Assembly: GCF_005877005.1 (NCBI RefSeq)
Contig: NZ_SSNH01000010.1
Location: forward strand, 1-64,000
Source: Sinomonas susongensis
GTDB lineage: Bacteria > Actinomycetota > Actinomycetes > Actinomycetales > Micrococcaceae
Direction of reading: 5' to 3'
Length of the DNA stretch: 64,000 nucleotides
Position 1 is the first letter of the stretch. The number at the start of each line of letters is the position of its first letter. The position numbers and the translations under genes were made by a program. Positions 18,213-24,982 of the stretch are shown piece after piece. The notes beneath the pieces were generated by a model that made no database searches, had not been told where the DNA came from, and saw only the letters and a program-made list of their open reading frames with translations.

Positions 18213-19664
18213 GTGAGTTCATCCATGGACGCTGGTTCCGTCAGTGCCCCCACGGGCCAGCAGGTCGTCGCACGGCTCGAACGCCTTGAGGTCTGGAGCC
18301 TTTCCTACCTCTTCATCGGGATCATCGGGCTCGGGTTCCTCTTCACGTTCTACGACATCTTCGACATCAACGTCTCGTTCATCCAGACGTGCGTGGAGCT
18401 GAACAAGGGCTGCACTCCAGAGAACGCCCTGAGCGCGCTGCCGCTCCCGGTGCTCCTCAATCTCGCCGGCTATGTGGTCGGAACCCTCGTGCTCAGCCCG
18501 ATCGCCGACCGCGTTGGGCGCCGCAACATGCTCATGGTCACGATGCTCATCACGGGTCTCGGTTCCCTCTACAACGCGTTCGTGGGCGACTACGCGAACT
18601 TCAACATTGCACGGATCGTGACAGGCATCGGCATCGGCGCCGACCTCGCGATCGTCAATACGTACGTGAACGAGGTCGCGCCGCGTAGAGCGCGGGCGAA
18701 GTTCACCACCATCATCTTCATCATGTCCGCTCTGGGGGCGCTCGTCGGCATCTGGCTCGGGCTCATCCTGACAACACCGGCCACTCCCTGGCCGCTCGGC
18801 CTCCCGTTCGCCGTTGCCGGCCCTGGATTCGAGATCGGGTGGAGGTGGATGTACGGGATTGGCGCGATCCTCGCCGTCATTGCGGTCCTGCTCAGGATCG
18901 AACTGCCCGAGTCGCCGCGCTGGCTCATCGGTCAGGGACGCTTCGCGGACGCGGACGGCGTCGTCCGCGTCATGGAGGAACGAGCCGCCCGTCACGGGCC
19001 GCTCGCGGAGCCTCTCCTCGCGGACACGTACGGGGCAACCGTGCCGCCGTCGCCCGTGCCGTACCGCGACCTCTTCAGCCGCGCGATGTATGTGCGGCGG
19101 ATCATCCTGCTGTTCCTCATCTGGTTCATCGGCTACATCACGGTCTACTCGTTCGCGTCCGGCTTCACGGCTGTCCTGTCGGCGCTTCGCTACCCGCCGC
19201 CCGAGGCCGGCGTCATCGCTGCCGTCGGGACGCTCGGCTTCGTTGCTGAGGCTGCCGTGATGAGTGCGATCGTGGAGAAGCTCGAGCGGCGCTACTGGTT
19301 GCCCATCGCCGCCGTGGTGACCATCATCGGCTCCCTCGTGGTCGCCTCGGCGGGCACCAATATCTGGGTATCCTTCATCGGCGCGATCCTCATCTTCGCC
19401 GGGTTCAACCTGTGGGTCTCCCCGACGTACGCGCTGACCGCCGAGTGCTTCCCGACTCGTGCCCGCACGACGGGCTTTGCCCTCGTGGACGGCGTCGGCC
19501 ACATCGGAGGGGGCATCGGCGTCATGATCATCGCGCCGATCCTGCCCCAGCTGCCGGTCGTGTGGGCGCTGGGCCTGATTTCGGTGTTCCTCGTCATCGC
19601 AGCCATCCTCGTCCAATTCACCCCTCACACCCGCAACCGGCACTTGGACCACATCTCTCCGTAG
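18213..19664 (+). CDS. MFS metabolite/proton symporter
   Basis: A 483-residue twelve-segment major facilitator. The loop 2-3 signature A-D-R-V-G-R-R-N-M-L (about 100) and the E-S-P-R-W-L-I motif after segment 6 place it in the sugar-porter / metabolite:H+ symporter group. Segments 1-2 are separated by a long exterior loop holding two cysteines (Q-T-C-V-E-L-N-K-G-C-T). The GTG at 18213 has GGGAGG upstream. Substrate unknown: sugars, aromatic acids or organic acids are possible. Its stop is 4 bases from the convergent end of the bacteriocin cluster. Confidence 0.82.
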   Translation: MSSSMDAGSVSAPTGQQVVARLERLEVWSLSYLFIGIIGLGFLFTFYDIFDINVSFIQTCVELNKGCTPENALSALPLPVLLNLAGYVVGTLVLSPIADRVGRRNMLMVTMLITGLGSLYNAFVGDYANFNIARIVTGIGIGADLAIVNTYVNEVAPRRARAKFTTIIFIMSALGALVGIWLGLILTTPATPWPLGLPFAVAGPGFEIGWRWMYGIGAILAVIAVLLRIELPESPRWLIGQGRFADADGVVRVMEERAARHGPLAEPLLADTYGATVPPSPVPYRDLFSRAMYVRRIILLFLIWFIGYITVYSFASGFTAVLSALRYPPPEAGVIAAVGTLGFVAEAAVMSAIVEKLERRYWLPIAAVVTIIGSLVVASAGTNIWVSFIGAILIFAGFNLWVSPTYALTAECFPTRARTTGFALVDGVGHIGGGIGVMIIAPILPQLPVVWALGLISVFLVIAAILVQFTPHTRNRHLDHISP

Positions 19665-19668
19665 CCGC

Positions 19669-20298
19669 CTAGCCCTCGAGCAGGACTGTCTGCCGAGGTT
19701 CAAGTCCCCGGGGCGGCGTGTGGGCGATAAGGAGGACGAGCCCCTCGTCGGACCATTTGGAGAGCTCCGCGATGAGGGTCTCGACGCCATGGTCGTCCAT
19801 GCCGTTGAACGGTTCGTCGAGGATGGTGAGTGGGGTGGGCAACGAGGTGCAGGCGAGGAGCCAGAGCTTGCGCTGGTTCCCGGTCGAGAGCTCGGCGGCC
19901 GGCGCCTCGAGCCACTCCGCCAGGCCGTAGCTTGCGGCTCGCTCGAGAAGCGGGTTCAGGTCCGTGCGGCGACAGCGTGCGGCGAACGCAAGATGGTCCC
20001 TCGTGGTCATCGAGGGATACAGTGCAGGCGCTGTCCGGCAGACACTGCGGAGGAGCCGGGCTTCGGGCGAGTGGGCGAGCGTTCCCGAGATTCGCACCTC
20101 GCCCTCGAAGGGAGCAAGAAATCCAGAGACCAGCTCGAGCAGAGTGGACTTCCCGCTCCCGTTCGGGCCGGCAATCCGGACGAGTCCCGGGCCGCCGAGG
20201 GCGAGGCTCAAGGGGTTGAAGACCGGGTGCTCGCGATCGTAGCCGGCGACGACCGACGCGAATTCGAGGTGTGGCGGCTCAGGCGGTGGCGAAGGCAA
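19669..20298 (-). CDS. ABC transporter ATPase of the putative circular bacteriocin cluster
   Basis: A 209-residue nucleotide-binding subunit. Walker A is G-P-N-G-S-G-K-S-T (about 34-42), Walker B L-T-I-L-D-E-P-F with the catalytic Glu, and the H-loop L-L-I-A-H-T. Two deviations stand out: the signature motif is L-S-T-G-N instead of LSGGQ, and the Q-loop glutamine is not seen (C-R-T-A-P-A-L). The start is unusual. No ATG fits; TTG at 20298, with GGGAG 6 bases before it, is best, and it overlaps the permease gene by 91 bases. The partner membrane protein is directly upstream. It likely powers export of, or self-protection against, the peptide encoded at 23354. Confidence 0.8.
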   Translation of the reverse strand: MPSPPPEPPHLEFASVVAGYDREHPVFNPLSLALGGPGLVRIAGPNGSGKSTLLELVSGFLAPFEGEVRISGTLAHSPEARLLRSVCRTAPALYPSMTTRDHLAFAARCRRTDLNPLLERAASYGLAEWLEAPAAELSTGNQRKLWLLACTSLPTPLTILDEPFNGMDDHGVETLIAELSKWSDEGLVLLIAHTPPRGLEPRQTVLLEG

Positions 20299-20843
20299 AG
20301 GAGGGCTCCCAATGTCAGGACGAGGGCGTACAGGGCGATGAGGACGGCGGCGAGAACAGGATCGACGAGGATGACGAGGAAGCAGGGCGCCATAAGCGCA
20401 TAGGCCGCGACGCTGCTCGCGAGTTCGAAGGGCTTGGTGCCGTCCGTGCTGGGCAGCGGGGCGACGAGCGATTCTCCGGTTGCCTCGGCGGCAGCGACGA
20501 CGACGGCGGCGGCTAGGGGTGCGAGGTAGAGATTGCCCGTCGCGAGCCACGCCGCGGTCGTGACGAAGGCGCCAAGCGGGAGGGTCATGCCGATGTACAA
20601 ACCGAGAAGCGAGGCCGCAACGCGATGGGCGGAGAGGCCATTCTCGATGACGAAGCGGGCATGGTAGATCTTGGCCGTGGGACCGACGCGTTCGAACGCA
20701 ATCGCAAGCACACACGAGCCGAGCAGGACGGTGATGCCCACGACGGCGCGGCTCACGTCCGTCGTCGGCACCGCGGCGAGAGCTGGGAGCGGAAGAAGAG
20801 GAGCGCAGCCGACCAGAATTCCGCACACCGAGATCGGGATCAA
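20208..20843 (-). CDS. ABC permease, C-terminal half after in-frame TAG
   Basis: A 211-residue stretch with about six hydrophobic segments, in the same frame as the upstream 293-residue half and separated from it only by a TAG codon (20844-20846). The first codon after the stop is TTG, which could in principle restart translation, but no ribosome binding site precedes it. Together the two halves would give a 12-segment protein of about 505 residues. The 3' end overlaps the ATPase gene. Either this is a nonsense-mutated single permease, or two six-segment polypeptides are made. Confidence 0.6.
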   Translation of the reverse strand: MIPISVCGILVGCAPLLPLPALAAVPTTDVSRAVVGITVLLGSCVLAIAFERVGPTAKIYHARFVIENGLSAHRVAASLLGLYIGMTLPLGAFVTTAAWLATGNLYLAPLAAAVVVAAAEATGESLVAPLPSTDGTKPFELASSVAAYALMAPCFLVILVDPVLAAVLIALYALVLTLGALLCLRHRLSRHTSNSRRSSPATIASTRSSTP

Positions 20844-21725
20844 CTAGTACATCGATGCCAGCGTTCCGTGCGGGGATGCCGTGAGATCCGCGAGGAAAGC
20901 TGTCGAGAGGCCGCTCCCCGTCGGTCGCTGAGGGGACCGGCGCTCTCGATTCGGTAGCAGGAGCGAGGAGTACCGGGCGCTGCGCAGGCAGACCAGAGTG
21001 CCGACGATCAACGCGACCGTGGCGACTAGCGAGGCCGTGGCGAGCACAGGGATCGCCAGCGGCGGGAGGCCGGGCCAGGAGATGCCAGCGCGCATGGTCC
21101 CTGTTGTTGCGACACCGAGCAGAAAGCCGACGACGGCGCACGCCTCCGCCCGCAGCCAGGTCACGGAAGCCCGGCGCGGCACCCGGATGGCGCACCACGC
21201 GGCGGTGAAGCAAGCCGCAGCCGAGGCGCAGAGGGCGAGAGGAAGAATCCACGCGTAGCGTGCCGCCGTGTTGGGGTCGTCGGGGCCGAAGACGAGGAGG
21301 AAGACGAGGGTCGCGACCGGAAGCGGTGCCGCCGCGACCCCTGCGGGGAGGACCCCGTAGCGCAGTGCGACGTGGGAGAGCGGCAGATCGAGGTCCCGGA
21401 ACAGCTTGAGGTGGGGGTTTGCGGCCACGGCGAGGCGCCGGCCGGTCAGCAGCCCCGAGCCGACGAGGGTGGCTGACGAGTACAGGATCGCGAGGGAGCA
21501 CATCTGCCACGCGAGTTCGCGATCCTGGGCGAAGACAGTGTCGCGGAGAATCCGCAGGAGCAGGAACCACAGCCCGATCGCGATGAGGCCGCCCACGCAA
21601 ACGGCTGTCGTCACCAGCAGCTTGAAGGCCCCGAGGCTCAAAGGAAGTCGAAAGGAGTTGATGATTTCGAAAGCGCGAAAATCCCGCATGAGGCGAAAAT
21701 CGGCGATCCAGGCGGATGAGGCCAT
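20844..21725 (-). CDS. ABC permease, N-terminal half ending at TAG
   Basis: A 293-residue protein. A short cytoplasmic start (F-R-L-M-R-D-F-R-A-F-E) is followed by about six transmembrane segments and a polar tail rich in Arg, Pro and Ser that ends abruptly at TAG. The reading frame continues without a break into another six-segment region. I recognise no named family, but a two-half multi-span membrane protein beside an ATPase gene fits an ABC-2-like exporter. The ATG at 21725 lies 2 bases past the upstream stop, so it is operonic with the 139-residue membrane protein. Confidence 0.65.
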   Translation of the reverse strand: MASSAWIADFRLMRDFRAFEIINSFRLPLSLGAFKLLVTTAVCVGGLIAIGLWFLLLRILRDTVFAQDRELAWQMCSLAILYSSATLVGSGLLTGRRLAVAANPHLKLFRDLDLPLSHVALRYGVLPAGVAAAPLPVATLVFLLVFGPDDPNTAARYAWILPLALCASAAACFTAAWCAIRVPRRASVTWLRAEACAVVGFLLGVATTGTMRAGISWPGLPPLAIPVLATASLVATVALIVGTLVCLRSARYSSLLLPNRERRSPQRPTGSGLSTAFLADLTASPHGTLASMY

Positions 21726-21727
21726 GG

Positions 21728-22147
21728 TCAGAATTTGCTTTTGGGGTCGGCTGAAAGGATCGAACCATGGAGTTCGACGAGCTGGGCCGAGGCCAACAGT
21801 GTGCAGACGACCGTTGCCGCTAGTGAAGCGACAGTCTGGACAGGGGTGGCCAGATATGGACTAAGACTGAATCCATGTGAGACTCCTGCGAGGAGGTAGA
21901 CGATGATCTTCAGTGCAGAGAATGCATTGACCTTTGTAAACGTCAAGACGAAAGGGACCAGTACGCCAAATGCGGTCACCCCTCCTAGTGCAACATACTT
22001 TGCTGCAAGCGGATCGAGGTTTTTAAGATCCGTTGGCAAGGGGGCCGCCCACAGCCCGATTGCAGCGACGATGGAGAGGAGAATCAGGCCGACGAGTTGA
22101 ATCCGGTGGAGTATTGGGAAGTAGCGAACATATAAGCGTCCCAGCAT
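21728..22147 (-). CDS. Small membrane protein of the bacteriocin cluster (candidate immunity)
   Basis: A 139-residue, four-span membrane protein (segments near residues 17-35, 52-70, 80-100 and 107-125), starting M-L-G-R-L-Y-V-R-Y-F. No family recognised. Composition is clearly AT-richer than the surroundings: in the 60 bases from 21901, 27 are G or C, against about two thirds in flanking genes. This suggests horizontal origin. In studied circular bacteriocin clusters, small hydrophobic proteins give immunity or assist secretion; either is possible here. It starts 15 bases after the 204-residue gene and ends 2 bases before the permease. Confidence 0.65.
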   Translation of the reverse strand: MLGRLYVRYFPILHRIQLVGLILLSIVAAIGLWAAPLPTDLKNLDPLAAKYVALGGVTAFGVLVPFVLTFTKVNAFSALKIIVYLLAGVSHGFSLSPYLATPVQTVASLAATVVCTLLASAQLVELHGSILSADPKSKF

Positions 22148-22162
22148 GGCGCCCCTGCCTTT

Positions 22163-22777
22163 TTAGCCGAAGCTGATGAGTAGCGGGAGAGCCCCGGCGG
22201 TCGCGATGACGAGGACCCTTTTCCCAGCTGCTAGTCCCCGCCAATAGTGGCGGTAGGCCAAGAGGGCGGAGACCGCGACCAGGGGAAAGTAGGCGTAGTA
22301 GCCGGGCACGCCGTGCAGATCGGGGAGTTGAGACACGATGCTGGCGAGGTGCACGGGAATGGTGCTCAGTACAGCGATAACGAAATACATGCCGACTCTC
22401 CATTTCCCATGAAGCAGCGGCTTTGTGGGAATGATTCGTCGATCGAGGAACGCTGCCAAGAGCAGATACAGCAGCATGACGACTGCGTACACGAGTACGA
22501 ACATGACCCCACCCACCGTGGTAGAGAAGGTCATCAGCCGTTCGTCGCCTAGCTCCGCTTTGGCATCGGCAGGTATCTGCGAGGCGACCGCCTGGAGCAC
22601 AAGGGGAAGCCGGGCGAGTACAAGCCCCATGATGACCAGATAGGCGATGACCCAGAAGAATCGGGGAGTTTTCTGTTTGCCCTCGTCCGAGGAATTCTCG
22701 GGTTTCATGTGACCGACGCGGGCAACGCTGATCAGGGGCTCGTCGGGTCGGGGAGGTTCTGGGGCTGAGATGCTCAT
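22163..22777 (-). CDS. Membrane protein of the bacteriocin cluster
   Basis: A 204-residue protein with a polar N-terminal region of about 40 residues and five hydrophobic segments (about 41-62, 85-112, 128-150, 162-180 and 187-203). Between segments 2 and 3 is the motif F-L-D-R-R-I-I-P-T-K-P-L-L-H-G-K. I do not recognise the family with certainty. It lies 5 bases after the SpoIIM-like gene. By position and topology it could play the part of the extra multi-span proteins (AS-48C/CclC type) needed for maturation or export of circular bacteriocins; that is inference. Confidence 0.65.
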   Translation of the reverse strand: MSISAPEPPRPDEPLISVARVGHMKPENSSDEGKQKTPRFFWVIAYLVIMGLVLARLPLVLQAVASQIPADAKAELGDERLMTFSTTVGGVMFVLVYAVVMLLYLLLAAFLDRRIIPTKPLLHGKWRVGMYFVIAVLSTIPVHLASIVSQLPDLHGVPGYYAYFPLVAVSALLAYRHYWRGLAAGKRVLVIATAGALPLLISFG

Positions 22778-22782
22778 GGTTC

Positions 22783-23349
22783 CTAAGGTGATCGGAGGGA
22801 AATGAGGGTGCTCTCGATTACCGCGGCCACCGTGATGAGGGCCAGGGCGAGGGCGACGGTGCGAAGCGAGGCGGCGACGTCGCGATACAGCGAGGTGAGC
22901 GAGATCCTGCCCTTGTCGAGCAGGACCTGCCGCACCGCACCGGAAGTTGGCTGGAGTCCAGCCGTTGCAGCAAGGACGAGCCCGCCGAATTCAAGGGGGG
23001 CGTACCAAATGACGTCAGCCAAGAGTTGGGCCACGCCGACTGAATGGACGCCCAAGGAGACGGTCGCGCCGACATAAAGGGCGAGGATGCCGCCCGCGAT
23101 CAGCGTGGTGAGTCCGAGAGTGACGACGCCGGAGTACAGAACTAGTGCGGCGCCTACGTTCCTCAGGAGTATCTGACCGAGGCCGCCCGCGAACCATGCG
23201 CCTTCGCCGAAGACCTTGTTGTCGGCGATCCAGGAAACGTCGAGAGCTGTGTATCCCGTGCACGCGACAAGGATCATCCCGGCCGCCGTGCTGAGGAGCA
23301 GGCCCGGGGGCACGCCCCTCAGCACAGCACGTGGACCGCGAGCGAACAC
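22783..23349 (-). CDS. SpoIIM/DUF95 family membrane protein (circular bacteriocin maturation type)
   Basis: A 188-residue protein with five or six hydrophobic segments. Family features visible: Q-I-L-L-R-N-V-G-A-A-L in the second segment, the Gly-rich L-I-A-G-G-I-L-A-L-Y-V-G-A-T-V-S-L-G, and W-Y-A-P-L-E-F-G-G-L-V-L-A-A-T-A-G-L, which matches the conserved Glu segment of stage II sporulation protein M relatives. DUF95 proteins occur in the known circular bacteriocin clusters and are needed for production. The GTG at 23349, 4 bases past the precursor stop, is preferred; an earlier in-frame start at 23433 would overlap the precursor. There is no sporulation context. This is the strongest partner evidence for the precursor call. 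Confidence 0.75.
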   Translation of the reverse strand: MFARGPRAVLRGVPPGLLLSTAAGMILVACTGYTALDVSWIADNKVFGEGAWFAGGLGQILLRNVGAALVLYSGVVTLGLTTLIAGGILALYVGATVSLGVHSVGVAQLLADVIWYAPLEFGGLVLAATAGLQPTSGAVRQVLLDKGRISLTSLYRDVAASLRTVALALALITVAAVIESTLISLRSP

Positions 23350-23353
23350 TCGG

Positions 23354-23635
23354 CTATGCCACGGCCTGAGCCCGGCCCCACCGCAGCGCGACCGCGCGCG
23401 CAGTCGCGATGAGCGCGCCCGTGATGCCCGCACCGAAGACGGTGCCGATGACGACGAGGGCCCACCCTCCTACCTCGACTGCCTGCATGATCTGGCTCGC
23501 CGCAGCGGCAGAGATGCCGAGCGAACCCGCGATCCACGAGACGGCCAGCGAAGCGCCGAGCAGTCCTAGGGTGCCGAGGGCGACGGCGGCGGCCACGGTG
23601 AGTACGGGGCCTCGCTTCATGCGCGTAGTTTCCAT
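23354..23635 (-). CDS. Circular bacteriocin (AS-48-like) precursor
   Basis: A 93-residue hydrophobic peptide precursor with an excellent AAGGAGAGG site 6 bases before the ATG. Residues 39-58 align without gaps to residues 5-24 of enterocin AS-48 as I recall it, with 10 of 20 identical, including G-I, A-A, and V-E-x-G-G-W (residues 53-58). The remaining core continues as helical hydrophobic segments and ends with three Arg and a hydrophobic A-V-A terminus. The leader would be about 34 residues and hydrophobic, as in AS-48 (35). Cleavage near W34/I35 would give a 59-residue ring with net positive charge. The following SpoIIM, membrane and ABC genes match the usual cluster content. The cleavage site and activity are inference. 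Confidence 0.75.
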   Translation of the reverse strand: METTRMKRGPVLTVAAAVALGTLGLLGASLAVSWIAGSLGISAAAASQIMQAVEVGGWALVVIGTVFGAGITGALIATARAVALRWGRAQAVA

Positions 23636-23677
23636 GAGAAACCTCTCCTTTACGTATTGAGGAATGACAATCGGCAG

Positions 23678-23706
23678 AGTAGCAATGCGTGCTTCTGCGG
23701 TGTCAA
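23678..23706 (-). promoter_or_regulatory. Candidate promoter of the bacteriocin operon
   Basis: Minus-strand TTGACA (23706-23701), 17-base spacer, then GCTACT (23683-23678) as a weak -10, about 43 bases before the precursor start codon. The -35 is perfect; the -10 matches only three of six bases. Confidence 0.5.
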
Positions 23707-23824: not shown

Positions 23825-24982
23825 TCAGCGGAACGCTCCAACCCCGGTCAGCCGCTCACCCAGAATGAGGGTGTGCACCTCGTCGGTCCCCTCGTAGGTG
23901 CGCACGGACTCGAGGTTGTTGGCGTGCCGCATCGGCGAATACTCGAGGGTGATGCCGTTGCCGCCGAGGATGGTGCGGGCTTCGCGGCAGATCTCGATCG
24001 CCTCGCGGCAGTTGTTGAGCTTGCCGACGCTGATCTGGTGCGGCTCGAGCCGGCCCGCGTCCTTGAGCCGGCCGAGGTGCAGGGCGAGGAGGAAGCCCTT
24101 GTTGATCTCGAGGGCCATGTCGACGAGCTTCTGCTGGGTCAGCTGGTACCCGGCGAGGGGCTTGCCGAACTGGAGGCGCTCCTTCGAGTAGGCGAGCGCG
24201 TCCTCGAACGCATCCCGTGCTGCCCCCATCGCCCCCCACACGATGCCGTATCTGGCCTCATTCAGGCAGGAGAACGGTCCGCGCAGACCTACGGCGCCGG
24301 GCAGGACCCCGTCCTCGGGCAGGCGCACGTCGTCGAGCGTCACCTCGCACTGGATCGAAGCCCGCATCGAAAGCTTCGGCTCGATCGGTGTTGCCGCATA
24401 GCCGGCAGTAGAGGTCGGGACGACGAAGCCGCGCACGCCGTCGTCCGTCTGGGCCCAGACGACGGCGACATCCGCGACGTTGGCGAGGCCGATCCAGCGC
24501 TTGGTCCCCGAGATGACCCAGTCGGAGCCGTCGCGGCGGGCGAAGGTGCGCATCGAGCCGGGGTCGGACCCGGCGGTGGGCTCGGTGAGCCCGAAACAGC
24601 CGATCGCCTCGCCCGTCGCCATCCGAGGCAGCCATTCCTGCTTCTGCTCCTCCGAGCCGTGCTTCCAGATCGCGCTCATCACGAGCGACCCCTGGACCGA
24701 GACGAACGTGCGCAGCCCCGAGTCTCCAGCCTCGAGCTCAGCTGCGGCGAGGCCGTATTCGACCGCCGAGCGGCCGTCGCACCCGTAGCCGGACAGGTGC
24801 ATGCCCAACAGGCCCTGGCGGGCAAGCTCCGGCACGAGCTCGAGCGGGAAGCGCGCCTCCTCGTACCAGCGCGCGATGTTCGGCCTGATCTCGGCGCGGA
24901 CGAACGCCCGGACGCGGGCGCGGAGGGCCAGTTCATCCTCGCTGAGCAGGGAGTCGAACGAGACGAGGTCAGAGGGGTCCAT
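23825..24982 (-). CDS. Acyl-CoA dehydrogenase, glutaryl-CoA-dehydrogenase-like
   Basis: A 385-residue flavoenzyme. FAD/substrate motifs are clear: C-F-G-L-T-E-P-T-A-G-S-D-P (about 130), W-I-G-L-A-N (about 168), N-E-A-R-Y-G-I-V-W-G (about 250) and the C-terminal R-T-Y-E-G-T-D-E-V-H-T-L-I-L-G with the catalytic Glu (about 367). The N-E-A-R-Y-G-I-x-W-G-A and Y-E-G-T blocks resemble glutaryl-CoA dehydrogenases, which oxidise and decarboxylate glutaryl-CoA to crotonyl-CoA in lysine/tryptophan breakdown. An isovaleryl- or other acyl-CoA enzyme is possible. The ATG at 24982 is 49 bases from the divergent GH31 gene. Confidence 0.85.
   Translation of the reverse strand: MDPSDLVSFDSLLSEDELALRARVRAFVRAEIRPNIARWYEEARFPLELVPELARQGLLGMHLSGYGCDGRSAVEYGLAAAELEAGDSGLRTFVSVQGSLVMSAIWKHGSEEQKQEWLPRMATGEAIGCFGLTEPTAGSDPGSMRTFARRDGSDWVISGTKRWIGLANVADVAVVWAQTDDGVRGFVVPTSTAGYAATPIEPKLSMRASIQCEVTLDDVRLPEDGVLPGAVGLRGPFSCLNEARYGIVWGAMGAARDAFEDALAYSKERLQFGKPLAGYQLTQQKLVDMALEINKGFLLALHLGRLKDAGRLEPHQISVGKLNNCREAIEICREARTILGGNGITLEYSPMRHANNLESVRTYEGTDEVHTLILGERLTGVGAFR

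Follow-up and report, generated by a model that had tools for sequence, protein, structure and literature searches.

The window analysed here is a 64,000-nucleotide stretch of the Sinomonas susongensis genome (contig NZ_SSNH01000010.1, positions 1 to 64,000), and its segment 19669..23635, read on the minus strand, is very probably an operon that makes a circular bacteriocin, closed head to tail and belonging to the PF09221 superfamily, in a branch concentrated in a Micrococcaceae-like family of soil bacteria. The segment encodes a small precursor peptide, a SpoIIM (DUF95) membrane protein, two further membrane proteins referred to as orfA and orfB, an ATP-binding cassette (ABC) permease whose frame is interrupted by one stop codon, and an ABC ATPase.

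The precursor peptide and its relatives

The precursor gene (23354..23635, minus strand) encodes 93 amino acids from an ATG codon, upstream of which stands the sequence AAAGGAG. Its product gives a sub-threshold match to PF09221 (E=1.9e-4, 22.0 bits, cut-off 23.6), and among five relatives that are 86 to 38% identical to it, P0010 (24.9 bits) and P0011 (26.0 bits) pass the same cut-off. With TIGR03651, the model for the circularin A/uberolysin subfamily, the window precursor scores 18.1 bits (E=0.0026), and the curated cut-off of 30.7 is not reached. As the branch shows, some actinobacterial circular bacteriocins escape the curated models.

When the window protein is compared with the PDB by phmmer, the best matches are AS-48 (4rgd/1e68, E=0.003-0.006) and enterocin NKR-5-3B (2mp8, E=0.03), the fourth row being a protease at E 5.7. 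A profile of the family, searched at E up to 10, gives three PDB matches, all of them circular bacteriocins (2mp8 at E=2.7e-5; AS-48 at E=3e-4 and 2.3e-3), and a profile of 20 family precursors matches two AS-48 precursors over both leader and core (probability 88, E=3e-6). An initial annotation of this DNA had pointed to a gap-free resemblance to AS-48, and this is borne out: I35 aligns opposite M1 of AS-48, the gap-free run up to GGW contains 10 identities in about 20 residues (counted by eye), and the alignment of the core with AS-48 scores 76 against a shuffle mean of 33 (standard deviation 6.3), a score equalled by none of 5000 shuffles. The cysteine-free, net positive core described in the same annotation is also found, as residues 35-93 hold no Cys and have three basic residues (K+R) against one acidic residue (D+E), and the peptide is very hydrophobic (grand average of hydropathy 1.15). 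The precursor is under purifying selection, with a ratio of nonsynonymous to synonymous change (pN/pS) of 0.14 against the relative at locus L011; the selection figures come from pairwise counts, with synonymous sites near-saturated for several genes. Judged from its sequence, the small-peptide cluster is thus supported as a circular bacteriocin cluster.

Gene order, recurrence and decay of the operon

The initial annotation placed a SpoIIM/DUF95 protein directly after the precursor on the same strand, followed by two further membrane proteins and an ABC ATPase, the genes being separated by short gaps, and this arrangement stands. The SpoIIM gene (22783..23349; 188 amino acids, GTG start) matches PF01944 at E=0.0013 (19.2 bits, cut-off of 26.9 not reached), and the SpoIIM proteins of four relatives all outscore it (2e-9 to 2.5e-4), those of L011 and L013 lying above the cut-off and those of L012 and L009 below. 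The product of orfA (22163..22777; 204 amino acids) has no meaningful Pfam match; three of six relatives scanned are weakly Yip1-like (PF04893, E 5e-4 to 9e-5, below the cut-off), and the other three give no match. The third membrane protein, orfB (21728..22147; 139 amino acids), is clearly kept in close relatives only. The ATPase (19669..20298; ABC_tran, E=3e-17) probably starts at the TTG codon at 20298, a placement based on residue 5 of the 19669-20310 frame lying opposite residue 1 of the L013 ATPase. In cluster order the genes are separated by 4, 5, 15, 2 and 0 bases, with the last pair overlapping. The operon is flanked on the left by what we take to be a major facilitator superfamily (MFS) transporter (18213-19664, plus strand) and on the right by a presumed acyl-CoA dehydrogenase (23825-24979 or longer, minus strand), both named from the sequence by eye.

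The branch recurs within the window's family. A precursor match is present in 3 of 15 genomes of the window's genus, and a family search with the first precursor alignment gave a match in 22 of 395 genomes, representing 9 of 32 genera, with a same-strand SpoIIM-family gene at the locus in 19 of the 22. The three remaining matches (G234, G352 and G389) were dropped, as no SpoIIM was present in the roughly 1.5 kb of flanking sequence retrieved; the G234 match adjoins an ABC-ATPase frame and was considered to be a permease look-alike. In a phylum-wide sample the window's own genome was the one match in 396, and a broader alignment gave 2 of 396, the second (G721) being weak and partial, while in an order-wide sample 2 of 347 genomes matched, one of them from another family and with the cluster. 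Most occurrences of the branch thus fall within the window's family (19 of 395 genomes), and the phylum-wide samples contain hardly any. Neither the viral contigs, scanned with P0001, an L047 precursor and an Enterococcus faecium precursor, nor the plasmids, scanned with the window precursor and SpoIIM, yielded a relative.

In all, 23 loci were compared (the window, L009, L011-L013, L038-L054 and L058, with L010 and L039 treated as one contig in view of their equal length of 410263), using profiles built from members of the set, with the window counted as its own reference and independent Pfam support for SpoIIM taken for the window, L009 and L011-L013 only. SpoIIM is present on the same strand in all 23, and is the immediate next gene in 21, the exceptions being L048 and L050. 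The ATPase family is matched in 22 of 23 loci, the sequence of L044 ending too soon; orfA is found in 21 of 23, and the permease family in 20, rising to 21 under a broader profile containing members of the set. Across the 395 family genomes, precursor and orfA occur together in 17, the precursor alone in 2, orfA alone in 1 and neither in 375 (Fisher p about 1e-26, with kinship not corrected for), a table in which the three weak precursor matches that have no SpoIIM are counted as absent. The orfA profile behind the total of 18 genomes comes mainly from cluster members and may miss distant orphans.

Several variants of the arrangement were seen. For instance, the gene order is precursor, permease, ATPase, SpoIIM in L048, and precursor, ATPase, SpoIIM, orfA, permease in L050. 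On contig C32 (L012:5200-9116) the window's genome (G000) contains a further cluster, divergent from the first, with uninterrupted frames for a precursor (89 amino acids, about 40% identical to the window's), SpoIIM, an orfA-like protein, a permease (499 amino acids) and an ATPase. Genome G014 carries two tandem, diverged precursors, the second of which (L011:8420-8728; 102 amino acids, 43% identical to the window's) has R in place of A as its last residue and could represent either a duplicate that is diverging or a peptide acting as a partner. Another kind of actinobacterial precursor, starting GVLAAALGGN and having neither an upstream nor a C-terminal aromatic residue, stands beside SpoIIM at L053:3828-4085 and L054:7726-7992, and a broader profile flags a possible second precursor in L054.

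In the case of the permease, the frame named in the initial annotation is present but not as a single intact open reading frame. The N-terminal piece (20844..21725, 293 codons) stops at an in-frame TAG (20844-20846), corresponding to codon 294 of 506, and the C-terminal piece (20208..20843) continues in the same frame, starting with a TTG codon immediately past the TAG. The permease is a single open reading frame in L009 (Arthrobacter alkaliphilus, 509 amino acids), L011 (506), L014 (509), L038 (511) and L039 (509), with no stop until codons 507 and 510 in L011 and L014, respectively; a Pfam scan of four intact relative permeases gave nothing meaningful. Changes unique to the window are found at 15 of 211 alignment columns after the TAG and at 25 of 291 before it, and are not commoner past the stop, so the TAG is recent, tolerated, or an assembly error.

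Decayed copies are found at the same chromosomal site, between the MFS and acyl-CoA dehydrogenase genes. The G014 cluster at this site is complete. In G008 most of the precursor and SpoIIM are gone, with orfA, orfB, the permease and the ATPase remaining as open frames, and in G007 the cluster is reduced to an intact 187-amino-acid orfA (L074:6841-7404) beside what appears by eye to be an adenylate-kinase-like gene. Since orfA survives the loss of the precursor, as an immunity gene would, it is the best immunity candidate, the decayed copies at one site singling out this one gene, although the G007 orfA could instead have arrived independently. Ten other genomes of the genus (L075-L084) contain no precursor, SpoIIM, orfA, orfB or permease within about 7 kb past the dehydrogenase; in these the MFS gene does not lie beside the dehydrogenase either, so that the comparison is not one with an empty site. 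G009, the remaining genome of the genus, gave no strong dehydrogenase match.

The same observations could be read as a cluster in decay, in which the TAG has inactivated the permease, the window copy makes no peptide and the other genes are being lost. The stop codon itself and the reduced copies in G008 and G007 agree with such a course, which comes close to an even call; on the other side are the lack of any excess of window-unique changes beyond the TAG, the neighbouring TTG codon at which translation could restart, and the chance of an error in the assembly. Production of peptide from the window copy is accordingly uncertain, and intact permease copies are present in relatives. That the window copy may be dead is also one of several points that weigh against a circular bacteriocin operon here. 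The two Pfam searches proposed in the initial annotation both gave matches, but the window precursor and its SpoIIM each score just under the curated cut-off; the closest relative of the precursor, P0007 (22.6 bits), and P0009 (20.2 bits) are likewise under that of PF09221, and P0008, the second G014 precursor, has no match to it. The net charge of the peptide is just +2, and the raffinocyclicin-like peptide L111 shows no likeness to the precursor (z -0.8). In comparisons with the As-48 proteins, SpoIIM resembles As-48C weakly (22 bits with one sequence, 5 with the other; profile comparison probability 2), profile comparison of the permease with As-48B detected no similarity, and none was detected for orfA or orfB. 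An alternative identity for the small peptide, as a signalling peptide acting on membranes or as a small subunit of the transporter within the membrane, would be in keeping with its marked hydrophobicity and with the fact that SpoIIM-type proteins are also known outside bacteriocin clusters. This is most improbable, as the significant PDB matches of the branch are circular bacteriocins, and the tandem diverged precursors of G014, the patchy distribution and the loss of the precursor before orfA are as expected of bacteriocins. A circular bacteriocin operon remains the best explanation of the segment.

The predicted point of ring closure

The initial annotation took residues 35-93 as the core and 1-34 as the leader, a boundary made doubtful by an alignment of 21 precursors (L038, L039 and L049, all three with W preceding the motif and A as the last residue, were left out as near-copies of kept rows). 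Position 34 is occupied by W in 14 rows, by Y in 5 and by V in 2, and the chain ends with A in 20 rows and with R in 1, so that an aromatic residue stands at position 34 in 19 of 21 precursors and at the C-terminus, where subgroup i would have it, in none; both features point to a boundary further upstream. The Pfam matches of the branch end at model position 66 of 67, and the family profile places the C-terminal A opposite A63 of the 64-residue NKR-5-3B, whose last residue is unpaired. The precursors of subgroup i that were fetched all end in W (L055, L056, L106, L111 and L112, with L055 and L056 being close kin and L111 being, by our own assignment, a raffinocyclicin-like member), whereas the three fetched from subgroup ii (L109, L110 and L113) place an aromatic residue immediately ahead of I-A and finish with A. 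The known precursors compared are part of the available records (2 of 2, 1 of 111 and 3 of 8, plus 2 of 4 Firmicute records listed, with H51 and H53 not included). Garvicin ML and carnocyclin A are subgroup-i members that have no C-terminal aromatic residue, and because such members exist its absence alone is not decisive.

The leader adds a further indication. Residues 29 and 31 are small in all 21 precursors, which fits a cut before V32, and the same small-small rule is satisfied in 15 of 21 for a cut before W34 and in 0 of 21 for a cut before I35. A looser signal-peptidase rule allows a cut after residue 31 in 20 of 21, and after 28 or 29 in 18 of 21. These small residues may, on the other hand, reflect the packing of a membrane helix (G24, A28, A31). 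The preferred leader is thus residues 1-31 (23543..23635, cut A31|V32), or 1-33 if the cut lies before W34, and the predicted ring peptide is residues 32-93 (23357..23542, 62 amino acids), with alternative starts at W34 (23536) and I35 (23533). The computed ring masses are 6046.0 Da for V32-A93, 5946.9 Da for S33-A93, 5859.8 Da for W34-A93 and 5673.6 Da for I35-A93. Ranked by judgement, a start at V32 is tentatively favoured, one at W34 is rather less likely, and one at any position other than these or I35 is very improbable.

A start at I35 would correspond to the register of subgroup i, with a cut at W34|I35, a ring of 59 amino acids and W34 acting as a leader recognition residue. The Pfam and PDB alignments set I35 opposite residue 1 of both AS-48 and NKR-5-3B, and in circular bacteriocins with short leaders, aromatic residues have been described near the leader end, often at -2, and AS-48 W70A still yields some circular, active peptide, such that the aromatic is not needed everywhere (PMC10028692). 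A ring of residues 35-93 would nonetheless have no aromatic residue at its C-terminus, a position held by W in 73% of subgroup-i peptides and one at which circularin A requires an aromatic for maturation, according to the same source (PMC10028692). Moreover, W/Y is conserved one step upstream of I35, mature acidocin B, which begins I-Y-W-I-A, retains its W inside the ring at position 3, before I-A, and a cut after residue 34 would have a small residue at -1 in none of the 21 precursors, making the subgroup-i register unlikely. With W/Y conserved at position 34, the C-terminal aromatic missing, and termini resembling those of subgroup ii, it is most likely from the sequence that W34 belongs to the ring.

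The similarity scores separate the core from the chain ends. For the core, the z-scores are 7.4 with AS-48 and 6.8 with the E. faecium NKR-like peptide (family medians 6.1 and 5.8), and 2.6 with acidocin B (16 of 1000 shuffles equal) and 2.0 with plantacyclin (47 of 1000; medians 2.6 and 2.2). For the whole precursor, the alignment with gassericin A is gap-free from the leader end through W-I-A-x-x-x-G-I but weak overall (z 2.1, 19 of 500 shuffles equal), that with plantaricyclin A is also weak (z 1.1, 73 of 500), and the values for an L. paracasei peptide and an Anoxybacillus subgroup-i precursor are 4.0 (out of register) and 4.3, respectively. A reading that links these results, and that we regard as evenly balanced, is that the branch would unite a subgroup-i ring sequence with subgroup-ii chain ends, the point at which the ring is opened and closed having moved by one to three residues, with W34 inside the ring near the new ligation site, a signal-peptidase-like cut before V32, and orfA representing a new type of immunity protein. 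As part of this reading, a ring motif of an aromatic residue, I/V/L, A and xxx-G-I may be common to both subgroups. A wholly new shift in ligation was considered and rejected, as published work already treats subgroup ii as a permutation of family i shifted by 3 residues (PMC7452424).

In the proposed pathway, the precursor would be made with the hydrophobic leader evident in its sequence, cleavage immediately ahead of V32, and no later than ahead of W34, would take the leader off, and the N-terminus so exposed would be linked to A93 in a ring of 60-62 residues, as the family would predict. SpoIIM, the permease and the ATPase would perform or escort maturation and export, by analogy with circularin A and leucocyclicin Q, and orfA, perhaps together with orfB and the transporter, would protect the producer, as suggested by which genes persist where the cluster has decayed. 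The mature peptide would be expected to kill related Gram-positive bacteria through membrane disturbance, the known action of the circular bacteriocin family. The mechanism by which circular bacteriocins are cut and closed has been described as not yet known (PMC10028692, PMC6131525). If the linking reading is true, a natural family that keeps the ring sequence but has its chain ends elsewhere would reveal which of the two, ring sequence or termini, the machinery recognises.

Comparison with known circular bacteriocins

The branch resembles subgroup i (enterocin AS-48, enterocin NKR-5-3B and circularin A; PF09221, TIGR03651) in its core sequence, its arrangement of leader and core, its SpoIIM and its ABC ATPase, but differs in the position of the aromatic residue, which precedes the core start instead of ending the chain. 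The label AS-48-type, used in the initial annotation, therefore holds clearly for the precursor and the ATPase (the ATPase profile scores 105-114 bits on As-48D and a lower 93 bits on As-48G) and weakly for SpoIIM, but does not extend to the rest of the AS-48 system: no counterparts of As-48 B, D1, E and H by profile comparison, or of F by profile search, were found, and the likeness to the EFGH proteins is just a general ABC-ATPase similarity. With subgroup ii (gassericin A, acidocin B and plantaricyclin A) the branch shares the aromatic-I-A-x-x-x-G-I/V start, the alanine end and a leader of about 31-33 amino acids, and in the gassericin A and plantaricyclin A records SpoIIM directly follows the precursor, as it does in the window. 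The sequence similarity to subgroup ii is weak, however, and by eye subgroup ii is without the V-x-V-G-G motif and the basic C-terminal stretch of the branch.

The initial annotation further proposed a new lineage in the Micrococcaceae, of which the separateness from AS-48 stands but the novelty for the family does not. An AS-48-like cluster of ten genes has been described in silico for Arthrobacter sp. APC 3897, with a precursor reported as 71.3% identical to AS-48 (PMC10456417), another has been reported in silico for Micrococcus luteus (PMC5695211), and a 2020 mSystems survey gives two actinobacterial precursors. The APC 3897 cluster is like that of the window in combining a precursor with DUF95 and ABC genes, and comes from a genus shared with two of the relatives found here, but its precursor is far closer to AS-48 than the window's. 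No earlier report of the present branch was found among the papers listed in searches of the open-licence literature, which is not proof of absence. The branch is divergent, distinct from AS-48 and scattered through the window's family, in which circular bacteriocins are already published; what the present analysis would add to these known systems, on the evidence of the sequences compared, is a branch that appears to join the sequence of subgroup i to the ends of subgroup ii.

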